Assembly: GCF_004765815.2 (NCBI RefSeq)
Contig: NZ_SBIS02000007.1
Coordinates: 372,001 to 436,000, forward strand
Direction: 5' to 3'
DNA length: 64,000 bases
From: Halorussus salinus
GTDB lineage: Archaea; Halobacteriota; Halobacteria; Halobacteriales; Haladaptataceae
The stretch's first letter is position 1, and each line of letters begins with the position of its first letter. A program made the translations under genes and the position numbers. Below are positions 29,693 through 33,075 of the stretch, in pieces. The notes under the pieces were generated by a model. The model saw nothing but the letters and a program-made list of their open reading frames with translations. It was not told where the DNA came from and made no database searches.

Positions 29693-30094
29693 ACCCGTAG
29701 TCGTCGCTCACCGGCGAAAAGCGAACCGATGCGCGCCCGATTCGTAGCTCGGCCGTTTCCAGTTAGTGTGGTTCGACCGTTTCCGGTCGTGGGTGGCTCA
29801 GCCGTTTCCGGTTAGTCGGACTGGGAGTCACGAGGTGGGCAGTGCCACCGCGGCGGGGCGGCACCGCAGCGCGACAGTGCTGACCGACTCGCCAGCTATC
29901 TGCTCGCAACTCCGCGAAGCGTCCGGGCAGGACTGGTTCCGTCTTCCGATATAAACGTCAGGTCGGGGTTACAGGTCGTGCGAACGCCGGACACCGGAAC
30001 CTGTTTAGGTCCACCGTCCGAACGCGTCTGTCGTGTTCCCGGCCGACGCTACAGTGCCCGACAGTCTCCAGCGCGCGCTCCGGAGGAGGTCCCC
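29693..30094. other. Intergenic region with three 25-bp repeats
   Basis: No believable gene. Between about 29746 and 29820 three imperfect units of 24-25 bp share the core CCGTTTCC (29753, 29777, 29802). The right part leads to the SWIM protein and ends in a strong Shine-Dalgarno sequence, GGAGGAGGT at 30082-30090. Confidence 0.55.
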
Positions 30095-30442
30095 GTGAAC
30101 GCTGTCGAGGAGTGGCAGGCCGACCTCGACGCGGCGGGCGAACTCACCCCGACGGTCACGAACGCCATCCTGTCGGTCCACGACGACCGCGGCGCGCAGG
30201 CAATCGAGGCCGTCTCGGAGGGGCGAGTCAAGGAGTATCGGGACTTCACGGTCGTCGTGGGCCACGACGACGAGTACGTCGTGGAGGGACGGGGCTGTGG
30301 CTGTCGGGACAGCGAGTACAACTTGGACCCCGAGGACCCGACCGACCTCTGTTGGCACGTCATCGCCGTCGCCATCGCGCGCCGGGTGGGCGCGGTGGAC
30401 GACCACGACATGTGGTACTCGGACGTACGCGACTTTCTGTGA
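30095..30442 (+). CDS. Small SWIM zinc-finger protein
   Basis: 115 residues. The SWIM signature C-x-C-x(n)-C-x-H appears as GCGC near residue 69 and LCWH about 16 residues later, inside the usual strand-helix context (YVVEGRGCGC, CWHVIAVAIA). SWIM domains bind DNA or proteins; function is not known for these short haloarchaeal forms. The GTG at 30095 is fixed by GGAGGAGGT ending 4 nt upstream, unlike the leaderless genes nearby. Confidence 0.8.
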   Translation: MNAVEEWQADLDAAGELTPTVTNAILSVHDDRGAQAIEAVSEGRVKEYRDFTVVVGHDDEYVVEGRGCGCRDSEYNLDPEDPTDLCWHVIAVAIARRVGAVDDHDMWYSDVRDFL

Positions 30443-30546: not shown

Positions 30547-30930
30547 CTACCTCGCGTCGGCGCGGAGGTCGGACAGCCGGTTCAGCGACGGCTTGAACCG
30601 CCACTCACAGCAACAACAACCCGTAAACGCGGTCGTCTCCAGCGATTCGGTAGGCTTCGGTTCCGCGTCGGTTCGGAGACTCGACAGTCGGTCCAGCGAC
30701 GGCTTGAACCGCCACTCACAACAGCAACATCCCGCGAGCGGGGCGGCTTCTAGCGAGTTCGTCGGCGTCGCGGTCGGTTCCGAGAGCGTGGTGGGGGCGT
30801 CGGTCGCCGAGACGGCGTCGCCGAGAACTGCGGTGTTCTGAGTCGAGTCCTGTGTAGCGGCCGCACCGCCAGTGAACGCGATTCCGAGTACGACGAGTCC
30901 GAGCAAGAGTCCAAGTGTGTTCGTGTTCAT
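30547..30930 (-). CDS. Small secreted peptide with duplicated CCCC motif
   Basis: 127 residues. A Sec signal peptide (about 1-25, ending AAA) is followed by a Ser/Thr-rich linker and then two copies of a 37-residue unit containing GCCCCEWRFKPSL. The only cysteines are the two runs of four. The runs use different Cys codons in the two copies, while the EWRFKPSL part is nearly identical at DNA level. The leader resembles that of the PIT-repeat gene upstream on the same strand. No family recognised; metal binding, thiol crosslinking or a bioactive peptide are possible. Confidence 0.7.
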   Translation of the reverse strand: MNTNTLGLLLGLVVLGIAFTGGAAATQDSTQNTAVLGDAVSATDAPTTLSEPTATPTNSLEAAPLAGCCCCEWRFKPSLDRLSSLRTDAEPKPTESLETTAFTGCCCCEWRFKPSLNRLSDLRADAR

Positions 30931-30940
30931 GATTGGTCTT

Positions 30941-30955
30941 GTGGAACGGTACCAC
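30941..30955 (-). promoter_or_regulatory. 5'-UTR hairpin of the CCCC-peptide gene
   Basis: On the coding strand GTGG-TACCGTT-CCAC followed by AAGA, 10 nt before the ATG at 30930. The same arrangement is found before the PIT-repeat gene, which supports a conserved leader element. Confidence 0.45.
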
Positions 30956-31132
30956 ATAACTCCCAACCGAATCCCCCTACTAAATATTTTTGATATTATA
31001 TCTAAATTAGTTCTATAAATAATGAAATTTGTGTATGAGTCGGTAGACGCGAGCGTCGAGGCACGGTCGGTACTCGCAGTCCGAGCGGCGACTGGTCGCG
31101 CAACCTCTCGAAAAATCGACTTCGGCCGAAAG

Positions 31133-31465
31133 TTACCGCGTAATCGGGGCGCTCGCGGTGGTGGGCGACTCCGTAATCGGCCCGGTGATCGGCGACTGGG
31201 TTATCGGCTGAGTCGCCGTAATCGGGGCGTCGGCCGTGATGGGCGACTCTGTGATGGGACCCGTGATCGGCGACTGAGTTATCGGTACGTCCTGCGTAAT
31301 CGGCGCGTCCGCTGTAATCGGCGATTGGGTAATCGGCGACTGAGTTATCGGCTGAGTCGCCGTAATCGGCCCATCGGCCGTAATCGGCGCGGCGGCCGCA
31401 CTACCGGTGAGCGCGATTCCGAGCATGGTGAATCCGACGAGGATTCCGAGTGTGCGTGTATTCAT
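31133..31465 (-). CDS. Small secreted PIT-repeat protein
   Basis: 110 residues. The signal peptide (about 1-25) matches the CCCC-peptide's leader at 17 of 25 positions. The mature ~85 residues are almost wholly 4-6-residue units starting with Pro-Ile-Thr: 15 PIT and one PTT (PITAD, PITATQ, PITQS, PITES and so on). It has no Cys or aromatic residues after the leader. Codons vary between units (ATT/ATC), so it is not just fresh slippage. It could form a regular extended or beta-solenoid-like structure. Function unknown. Confidence 0.65.
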   Translation of the reverse strand: MNTRTLGILVGFTMLGIALTGSAAAAPITADGPITATQPITQSPITQSPITADAPITQDVPITQSPITGPITESPITADAPITATQPITQSPITGPITESPTTASAPITR

Positions 31466-31473
31466 AGTAATCT

Positions 31474-31488
31474 TGGCGCAGTGCCAAC
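31474..31488 (-). promoter_or_regulatory. 5'-UTR hairpin of the PIT-repeat gene
   Basis: On the coding strand TTGGC-ACTGC-GCCAA then AGA, 8 nt before the ATG at 31465. It aligns with the hairpin before the CCCC-peptide gene over both stem and spacing. Confidence 0.45.
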
Positions 31489-31887
31489 TTCTATTAAACT
31501 CTTCACGCCCTAAAACTTTTTCTCTATATTGCGTGGGGACATAAGAAATTCATTCTGTTCGGGCGATTTTACAAAATCTGGTAATTACTCTATATTGATA
31601 CGGGGGAATACCGCTAGCAGGTGGTCGGCGAAATACCTCTCGTCGAATCGACGGAACAGTTCCGGAGAGTGGAAGTCCGACCGCTCGTCGGCGTCGAGTG
31701 AGCGAAGGCCGACGAAGACGAAACTCGAAAGACGGGACCCCGGTTTCCGAAATGCGGGTAGGGGTATCGAAAGCCAGAGTCGCGAACTCTCACGGGTATC
31801 TTCCGTGTATGCCAAGAGATACCACATCATAAAAGGGGCCCTTCTCGCTTAATATTTCCTTTTAAAGCTAGAAATCGCCGGGGTCGG
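31489..31887. other. Low-GC spacer before hisH
   Basis: About 400 bp of lower GC content than the flanks, with AT-rich ends (31500-31520 and 31840-31870). One possible short gene lies inside it (31585-31830, listed separately). It should hold the promoter of the PIT-repeat gene at its left side. No RNA gene recognised. Confidence 0.45.
31585..31830 (-). CDS. Possible small hypothetical protein
   Basis: 81 codons starting MMWYLLAYTEDTRESS. Composition is aromatic-rich and not strongly acidic, which is unusual here, and no motif or signal peptide is seen. It may be a decayed fragment or chance reading frame in a lower-GC spacer. Confidence 0.22.
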   Translation of the reverse strand: MMWYLLAYTEDTRESSRLWLSIPLPAFRKPGSRLSSFVFVGLRSLDADERSDFHSPELFRRFDERYFADHLLAVFPRINIE

Positions 31888-32643
31888 TCACGCCGTGCAG
31901 ATATCTACGAAGTTCCGGAGGAGTCGGAGGCCGGTCTCGCCGCTCTTCTCGGGGTGGAACTGCGTTCCGAAGACGGTTCCCTCGTCGTTGGCGACGACCG
32001 CCGGGAACGCCGTTCCGTAGTCGCTCGTGGCGACGACGGCCTCCGGGTCGTCGGGGACCGCGTAGTAGGAGTGGACGAAGTAGGCGTACTCGCCATCGAC
32101 GCCGTCCACGAGAGGGTGGTCGCGCTTCACGTCGAGTTCGTTCCACCCCATGTGCGGGACTTTCTGGCCGTCCGCGAATCGGACGTTAGTTCCCGGAATC
32201 AGGTCGAGTCCGCGCACGTCGCCCGCGTGCCCACCGGCACGTTCGCCTGCGTGTCCGCCAGCACCGTCACTCGCGCTCTCGCTCGCGTCGGCGTCACTCG
32301 CGTGCCCGTCCGAGGAGTCCGCCGTGCGCTCGGCCTCCTCGCTGGTCGTCAGAAGCATCTGCATCCCGAGACAGATGCCGAAGACGGGCGTCCCACGGTC
32401 GGCGGCGTCGAGGAGCGCCGCCCGGTAGGGACCCGCGTTCTCGACGCCCTCGCGGAACGCGCCGACGCCCGGCAGGACGACCCCGTCGGCCGACGCGAAC
32501 GTCTCGGGGTCGTCGCTGACCGTGACGGTCGCACCCGCCCGTTCCAACCCTCGCGTGACGCTCCGGAGGTTTCCCAGTCCGTAATCGACCACGACGACCG
32601 ACGCTCCGGTCTCCTCGGGGTCGCGCGCTTCGGTGGCGTTCAT
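31888..32643 (-). CDS. hisH: Imidazole glycerol phosphate synthase, glutaminase subunit HisH
   Basis: 251 residues. Class I glutamine amidotransferase that supplies ammonia to HisF in histidine synthesis. The catalytic Cys is in GICLGMQML and the His/Glu pair in FHPEKSGETG. A ~40-residue Ser/Asp/Gly/Ala-rich insertion follows the Cys motif, absent from the compact family core. The ATG at 32643 is chosen because the 38-residue upstream extension is not family-like. No other his gene is in the window. Confidence 0.93.
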   Translation of the reverse strand: MNATEARDPEETGASVVVVDYGLGNLRSVTRGLERAGATVTVSDDPETFASADGVVLPGVGAFREGVENAGPYRAALLDAADRGTPVFGICLGMQMLLTTSEEAERTADSSDGHASDADASESASDGAGGHAGERAGGHAGDVRGLDLIPGTNVRFADGQKVPHMGWNELDVKRDHPLVDGVDGEYAYFVHSYYAVPDDPEAVVATSDYGTAFPAVVANDEGTVFGTQFHPEKSGETGLRLLRNFVDICTA

Positions 32644-33075
32644 GCCCGAGAGTACCTGTGGCACGGCAAAGTCCCTTTCCTTCCCGGCGTCGAGTCGCCG
32701 AAAGACCTGACTGATTTCGAAAGTATTCGTGGACGCATTTCGGGAAGAAGGGTCCAACGAGTAGTTCGTTTACACTCGCCGCGTCCGCCGGGGGAGGGCC
32801 GCAGTCGGAGGCACGGGCATCGAGTCTTCGACACCGCGCGTGTGGCAGTCGCGCCAGTGGGCGGAGTCCGTTCGGTCCGGCTTCAGTCAGTATTCTAATA
32901 ATTTTTCTCCGGGGTCGCGCTCGACTGCGACCGGTGGTCGGCACCTTTTGCGTGTTAACTTTTCACGCGCTATTCGGCCGCGAAGACGAGTATTACGGTC
33001 TGAGTGCCGTGATATTATATAGGAAAAATAGGAAGACTTAACCGGCGCGTGTCTGACCGTTAAGATGATTCGGTC
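32644..33075. other. Intergenic region upstream of phnD
   Basis: About 430 bp between divergent hisH and phnD with no credible gene. It becomes AT-rich towards phnD; TATTATATA at about 33011-33019 is the likely TATA box and implies a ~30-nt leader. Confidence 0.45.

Follow-up and report, generated by a model that had tools for sequence, protein, structure and literature searches.

The small-protein genes at 30547..30930 and 31133..31465 of the window (the whole 64,000-nucleotide stretch analysed here, part of a 4.75-Mb Halorussus genome labelled G000 in comparisons) are probably paralogues, members of a family of small Sec-secreted proteins confined to the genus, shaped by duplication within one chromosomal slot, by gain of a CCCC unit and decay of PIT repeats, and by retention of the leader and of a hairpin at the predicted transcription start. 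Homology, synteny, a hybrid gene in a second genome, the leader family and hairpin statistics carry this reading. We refer to the two genes as the C4 gene and the PIT gene, respectively; a preliminary description of this DNA had placed both on the minus strand at the same coordinates, and we agree. The features of the slot are as follows.

30094..30441, plus strand: SWIM-type CxCxnCxH protein, downstream border of the slot (18/18 genomes)
30547..30930, minus strand: C4 gene, 127 aa, predicted secreted; leader, degenerate PIT stretch and two CCCCEWRFKPSL units
30553-30761, minus strand: span of the C4 tandem duplication (111 bp, 37 aa)
30601..30618, minus strand: second CCCCEW motif of C4, part of the tandem duplication
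30712..30729, minus strand: first CCCCEW motif of C4
30730..30801, minus strand: degenerate PIT stretch of C4, DAPTTLSEPTATPTNSLEAAPLAG, from alignment with the hybrid G015 protein
30856..30930, minus strand: C4 type-1 leader, MNTNTLGLLLGLVVLGIAFTGGAAA, from leader comparison and profile scans
30940..30956, minus strand: C4 hairpin, TGTGGTACCGTTCCACA, -26 to -10 from the ATG
30981..30987, minus strand: C4 TATA-like element, ATATTTA
31133..31465, minus strand: PIT gene, 110 aa, predicted Sec-type secreted; leader and 16 PIT-type units
31391..31465, minus strand: PIT gene type-1 leader, MNTRTLGILVGFTMLGIALTGSAAA, from leader comparison and profile scans
31473..31487, minus strand: PIT gene hairpin, TTGGCACTGCGCCAA, -22 to -8 from the ATG, at the predicted transcription start
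31510..31515, minus strand: PIT gene TATA-like element, TTTTAG, within the A/T-rich promoter stretch AGAAAAAGTTTTAG
31888..32757, minus strand: class-I glutamine amidotransferase, which we take to be hisH-type, upstream border of the slot

The SWIM-type name is our reading of the CxCxnCxH pattern, which comes with no Pfam match. The PIT gene contains DNA repeats of 78 bp and shorter, and its promoter stretch resembles that of the slot orthologues. An 81-aa ORF (MMWYLLAYTEDTRESS..., 31585-31830, minus strand) also lies in the interval from the hisH-type to the PIT gene; we found no match to it in the slot of other genomes, nor in Pfam or NCBIfam.

The type-1 leader

The leaders of the PIT and C4 proteins are identical at 17/25 positions, a count taken from the preliminary description that we recounted and confirm, and their BLOSUM score is 86. 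Likeness between random Sec-like signals, the yardstick named in advance, lies far below this: when 71 other signal-like N-termini, taken from 464 kb of the window genome, are compared with one another (2,485 pairs, each at its best of 9 offsets), the highest values reached are 11 identities and a score of 43. The leader DNA of the two genes matches at 56/75 bases. A profile trained solely on the eight slot PIT leaders (eight species) gives 48 bits to C4, 43 bits to the hybrid protein of genome G015 and 14-20 bits to three PEYxxC proteins, while the best of the 71 other N-termini reaches 5.6 bits. With a pair background that stops at 11 identities and a PIT-leader profile that picks out C4, convergent or chance likeness of Sec signals is ruled out. 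The PIT and C4 proteins belong to one homologous leader family (type 1), and their leaders are more alike than the genome's other signal peptides.

Across 18 Halorussus genomes the type-1 leader heads 13 genes, whose mature parts are of the PIT, CCCC/hybrid or PEYxxC type. The genus-wide scan that delimits this set used a model built from 12 of its 13 hits, whose matches are thus by construction; the gap that follows, from E 1.8e-9 to 0.015, shows that there are no further clear type-1 members in the 18 genomes. Three of the genes are in the window genome, namely the PIT gene, the C4 gene and a PEYxxC gene (G000:C1:861957). Since the PEYxxC type, a third mature type, has the type-1 leader, this leader is indeed reused ahead of other mature parts. 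The preliminary picture of a reusable leader cassette therefore survives for the family, but the window pair itself appears to have arisen by duplication and not by joining the leader to an unrelated effector.

The three PEYxxC proteins (G000:C1:861957, L107; G004, L108; G003, L109) each combine a type-1 leader and repeated PEYxxC units with a start-site hairpin. At the G000 and G003 loci an antisense frame reads a similar protein (SDADALDRRLSAVERALTDDDSDLTDL / SRPDGFDQRLRAVERALTDGDSDLTDL), which hints at a conserved neighbour.

The leaders end in AAAAPIT and AAATQDS, without the lipobox cysteine that would directly follow the h-region in a haloarchaeal lipoprotein, and the only LAGC in C4 is internal (residues 65-68). 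Scores against TIGR04207, the haloarchaeal surface-glycoprotein signal peptide, are 11.3 bits for C4 and 12.5 for the hybrid, short of the curated cut-off of 24.6. In the slot PIT genes of G013, G003, G012 and G015 another potential start, an ATG or GTG in frame, precedes the assigned ATG by 9 nt, and the G001 gene has its usable ATG displaced 9 nt upstream; the start codons assigned to these slot PIT genes are uncertain.

Mature parts and their distribution in Halorussus

It had been claimed that the mature parts of the two proteins differ completely, and this does not hold. In G015, the slot between the hisH-type and SWIM-type genes contains two genes, a PIT gene and a hybrid that consists of the leader, PIT repeats and CCCCEWRYNPAL; its four PIT units are followed by PLSGCCCCEWRYNPALDVMSEL. 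The hybrid matches C4 with 43% identity over 117 aligned positions, and the stretch DAPTTLSEPTATPTNSLEAAPLAG, which precedes the first CCCC unit of C4, aligns with the hybrid's PIT repeats plus TPLSG. Because of this match and this alignment, we place PIT and C4 in one family, with mature parts that are not unrelated. PIT-type units number 16 in the window PIT gene and 4 in the hybrid, and the window C4 has only the degenerate stretch. We accordingly read the C4 gene, from these alignments, as a PIT paralogue that has diverged and has duplicated 111 bp internally. The order of the genes differs: relative to the PIT gene, the G015 hybrid is hisH-proximal and the window C4 hisH-distal; therefore rearrangement or an independent origin of the slot copies is possible and must be allowed for. 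The 15 exact PIT units of the window PIT gene use 9 codon strings, and this synonymous variety suggests that the protein is being kept.

The slot PIT gene is present in eight genomes counting the window, that is, with orthologues in 7 further Halorussus genomes; the slots of G010 and G017 hold decayed PIT remnants, and several other Halorussus slots gave no PIT match. In the remnants (G010, L043; G017, L042) PIT units persist behind an unrecognisable leader, and they are probably decaying copies. PIT proteins occur in 10/18 Halorussus genomes and in 0/374 other genomes sampled from the order. A search for CCCCEW in 392 genomes of the order found it twice in G000, once in G015 and once in G282, the last at a locus without a similar secreted ORF. 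A viral or plasmid origin was rejected, as viral contigs yielded no relatives and plasmids two chance matches only; a contig search with C4 as the query returned no match.

Four genomes (G003, G006, G008 and G012) also have PIT repeats at further loci, where they follow a different leader (leader 2). A scan with leader 2 added proteins at G000:C3:241758 (L167), G012:C7:15193 (L173) and G013:C1:449988 (L163), which have CxC (CxCLD) and long Gly/Asp runs, and one at G002:C1:2765064 with degenerate PIT units and cysteines; the marginal members from G002 (E 0.03) and G000 (E 0.14) were accepted on size, composition and hairpin. The three CxC proteins carry an EFKPSL/ELEPSL/ELKRSL motif that recalls the FKPSL of C4, which is suggestive only. 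Outside Halorussus, the leader-2 profile gave just four marginal matches, all in long reading frames, which we take to be chance signal peptides. Since PIT repeats sit behind both leaders, and leader 2 also heads Cys- and Gly/Asp-rich proteins, leader and mature part appear from these sequences to be combined in more than one way across Halorussus.

Each of the three CxC genes (G000:C3:241758, G012 L173, G013 L163) has a strong bulged hairpin at the predicted start, with a UUCG loop in G000. In G008 (L067, near 1465-1840) a leader-2 PIT protein stops shortly before an in-frame NCDDLTQPFCK, which resembles the tails TQDDCGLTDPVCEE and TQDCNELTDPACLE of G012 and G002 and is possibly a truncated tail.

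Neither window protein has a family match above cut-off in Pfam or NCBIfam; the match to Extensin-like PF02095 (23.7 bits, gathering cut-off 105 bits) is one of low complexity, and we take matches to uncharacterised PHROGs families, the best of which (E 4e-4) falls on the PIT repeats, to be of the same kind. The single-sequence AlphaFold2 model of the PIT protein has short strands at most PIT units, with pLDDT mostly 54-74 in the mature part and a pTM of 0.44. Its fold found no Foldseek match at E < 0.001 and nothing reliable by VIA-align (best Z 4.1), the weak matches including an ice-binding protein and LpxD. At this moderate to low confidence, the model is compatible with a rod or solenoid and does not prove one. 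The C4 model (pLDDT mostly < 50) is uninformative, and a search for solved-structure relatives of C4 turned up none that is convincing.

Hairpins at the predicted transcription start

A hairpin precedes the ATG of each window gene, as had been described, though the details given for it need correction. In the PIT gene, TTGGC-ACTGC-GCCAA forms 5 bp around a loop of 5 nt and stops 7 nt short of the ATG; in the C4 gene, TGTGG-TACCGTT-CCACA forms 5 bp around a loop of 7 nt and stops 9 nt short of it. At the level of sequence their common part is TGGYACYGYKCCA. The observed scores are reached by 10% and 31% of dinucleotide shuffles, and a stem just as strong occurs within 45 nt upstream of 24% of called genes; taken singly, the window hairpins are unremarkable and within chance. 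In the PIT gene another fold wins once upstream DNA is included. A search of Rfam for a known RNA family gave only nematode snoRNAs below threshold.

Conservation in relatives is mixed: the hairpin is intact in both window genes, in G004, G013 and G008 and in the G015 hybrid, but eroded or replaced in G001, G003, G012 and the PIT gene of G015, so that the stem is absent from four of the eight slot PIT orthologues. When the ten slot genes are aligned, 79% of cells pair, as against 32-52% for slid versions of the alignment, and 3/6 pairs show two-sided changes; the covariation score is reached by 42/500 shuffles. Pairing and covariation in the slot give moderate support for the stem.

More distant family members have strong hairpins (-13 to -19.5 kcal/mol) about 23-30 nt after the TATA box. 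Given the usual archaeal distance from TATA element to transcription start, such a hairpin would sit at the 5' end of the mRNA. Once hairpins had been placed without regard to the promoter, a TATA-like element preceded them by 23-30 nt in 11/21 members; permutations give 5.5 +/- 1.8, and 20/5000 are as high. The predicted 5'UTR energy has a median of -8.3 kcal/mol in the 21 family members and -4.0 kcal/mol in 69 leadered-type genes, and it is at or below -12 kcal/mol in 8/21 and 2/69, respectively. The nominal p of 1.6e-5 for this comparison is too small, because the family members are not independent, and the background depends on rough gene calls and an equally rough TATA pattern, with the lowest-energy TATA picked for family and background alike. 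In most family members the 22 nt preceding the ATG lack any Shine-Dalgarno-like motif. A scan of 1.26 Mb for a TATA element, a strong perfect hairpin and an ATG found 4 hits, as against 2-5 in shifted controls, with a pattern that misses bulged stems, including that of the family's own G000:C3 gene; 5'-terminal strong perfect hairpins are not a general feature of the window genome. The position and pairing of the hairpin are supported statistically for the family and weakly for the window genes, and its regulatory role is a prediction.

Might the leader and hairpin be alike merely because the genes are tandem paralogues, the hairpin having no function? The weakness of the window hairpins, the loss of the stem in G001, G003, G012 and the G015 PIT gene, and leader DNA that is still similar at three quarters of its bases all fit such a plain duplication, which we regard as a serious contender, if on the less likely side. 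It does not explain why distant members, including leader-2 genes without recognisable upstream similarity, have strong hairpins at the equivalent place relative to the promoter, nor why stems change letters and keep their pairing (GCGTGCGA/TCGCACGC versus GCGTGCTA/TAGCACGC; CTCGG/CCGAG versus CTCGAAT/ATTCGAG).

The same variation bears on a second alternative, in which the inverted repeat is a DNA operator for a dimeric repressor and not an RNA structure. The repeat lies at or just after the predicted start, a usual place for archaeal repressor sites, and TGG..CCA is common to several slot genes. A sequence-specific operator should keep its letters, however, while these stems vary widely (TTGGC, TGTGG, GCGTGCGA, GGTGTTCGG, CCCATGCTCGGC) with pairing kept; we therefore hold an operator to be distinctly improbable.

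For the C4 gene, the hairpin would fall inside the coding region if the transcript were leaderless and began at the in-frame ATG 27 nt upstream (MWYRSTRPI-MNTNTLG...), which is the predicted start position. By dRNA-seq, structured leaders are not typical in haloarchaea, and 72% of Haloferax protein-coding transcripts are leaderless (PMC4983044). But no in-frame start codon separates hairpin from ATG in the G015 hybrid, which is the closest relative, or in the window PIT gene; a leaderless C4 transcript thus seems unlikely to us.

A hairpin in a short 5'UTR has a counterpart in Haloferax, where a 5'UTR stem-loop sets translation efficiency: stabilising it abolishes translation, and destabilising it makes translation constitutively high (PMC2636863). 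That stem-loop, in the hp transcript, is comparable in strength to those of the window (-7.4 versus -5.6 to -5.8 kcal/mol) and likewise lies in a short haloarchaeal 5'UTR. It concerns one mRNA whose translation effect was tested, whereas in Halorussus a gene family shares the element, of putative effect, at its predicted 5' end.

Proposed history and function

In the history that we favour, an ancestral PIT-repeat gene would have been tandemly duplicated between the hisH-type and SWIM-type genes, and one slot copy would have gained a CCCCEWR-FKPSL unit, a stage at which G015 would still be a hybrid. In the window species, the PIT repeats of the CCCC-bearing copy would then have decayed and the CCCC unit been duplicated. 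Promoter, start-site hairpin and leader may have been retained as serving expression and export, leaving the repeat-built mature part free to change.

The predicted transcription start, some 25 nt downstream of the TATA element, coincides with the hairpin, and the mRNA would thus carry a 5'-terminal stem-loop and a short spacer to the AUG, mostly without a Shine-Dalgarno-like motif. A 5'-terminal stem can protect an mRNA from 5' exonucleases. This protection, together with the Haloferax stem-loop effect (PMC2636863), is why we propose that the stem would slow decay from the 5' end, throttle initiation, or both. The proteins would be exported via Sec, with cleavage just behind the AAA/ATA motif. 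Once outside, the PIT part may take the shape of a rod, extended or beta-solenoid-like, and the C4 part may be a segment rich in thiols, probably disulfide- or metal-linked. From secretion, patchiness, change in repeat number and decay of copies, a lineage-specific role in cell-surface or intercellular interaction seems to us the likeliest, a suggestion that we make tentatively.

Cone-snail toxins and class II bacteriocins are likewise secreted peptide families in which the leader is conserved and the mature part variable. They have in common with the Halorussus family a conserved leader, a fast-changing mature part and tandem duplicates; unlike them, this family is archaeal, with a Sec-type leader, low-complexity repeats, no known activity, and modules partly shared between leaders. 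Lanthipeptide precursors, for their part, are modified by Lan enzymes encoded nearby. Archalan lanthipeptides are known from Halorussus salinus, as cited in PMC12893001, and are, like the window proteins, of this genus, small, and Ser/Thr- and Cys-containing; the window pair differs from them in its Sec-type leader and housekeeping neighbours. Within the slot, no lanthionine synthetase is adjacent to the pair, the slot ORFs and their neighbours being housekeeping genes.

Could antagonistic peptides be derived from the proteins, whether in the manner of halocins or through activation by extracellular proteases? The proteins are small, secreted by prediction, patchy, repeat-built and Cys-rich, and the release of antagonistic fragments from secreted precursors is known in haloarchaea (PMC12893001). 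HapP (HFX_0892) and the halocins resemble the pair as secreted haloarchaeal proteins without an obvious partner gene (PMC12893001). HapP is larger, however, and its activity resides in N-terminal alpha-helices, while neither mature part is predicted to be helical, at low confidence for C4; no immunity, modification or transport gene is recognised beside the genes in the slot, and the lack of any family match noted above also speaks against it. An antagonistic function is thus, in our judgement, unlikely.

A broader reading than the paralogue history is that Halorussus has a modular secreted-peptide system, in which two export leaders, both accompanied by an mRNA hairpin at the start site, recombine with a limited set of mature modules (the PIT rod, CCCCEWR-FKPSL, CxC plus Gly/Asp runs, PEYxxC and a C..LTDP.C tail) into an extracellular repertoire that diversifies rapidly under common control by 5'-terminal hairpins; we offer it as speculation that may well prove too broad. 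Our literature search found no description of the Halorussus leader/PIT family, most subscription journals lying outside its reach.

With a hairpin at the predicted start in most members, the family would be a natural test case for the role of 5'-terminal stem-loops in archaeal mRNA. Its proteins are a small, tractable archaeal example of leader reuse and rapid turnover of secreted mature parts, and the hybrids and decayed copies show steps of that turnover.
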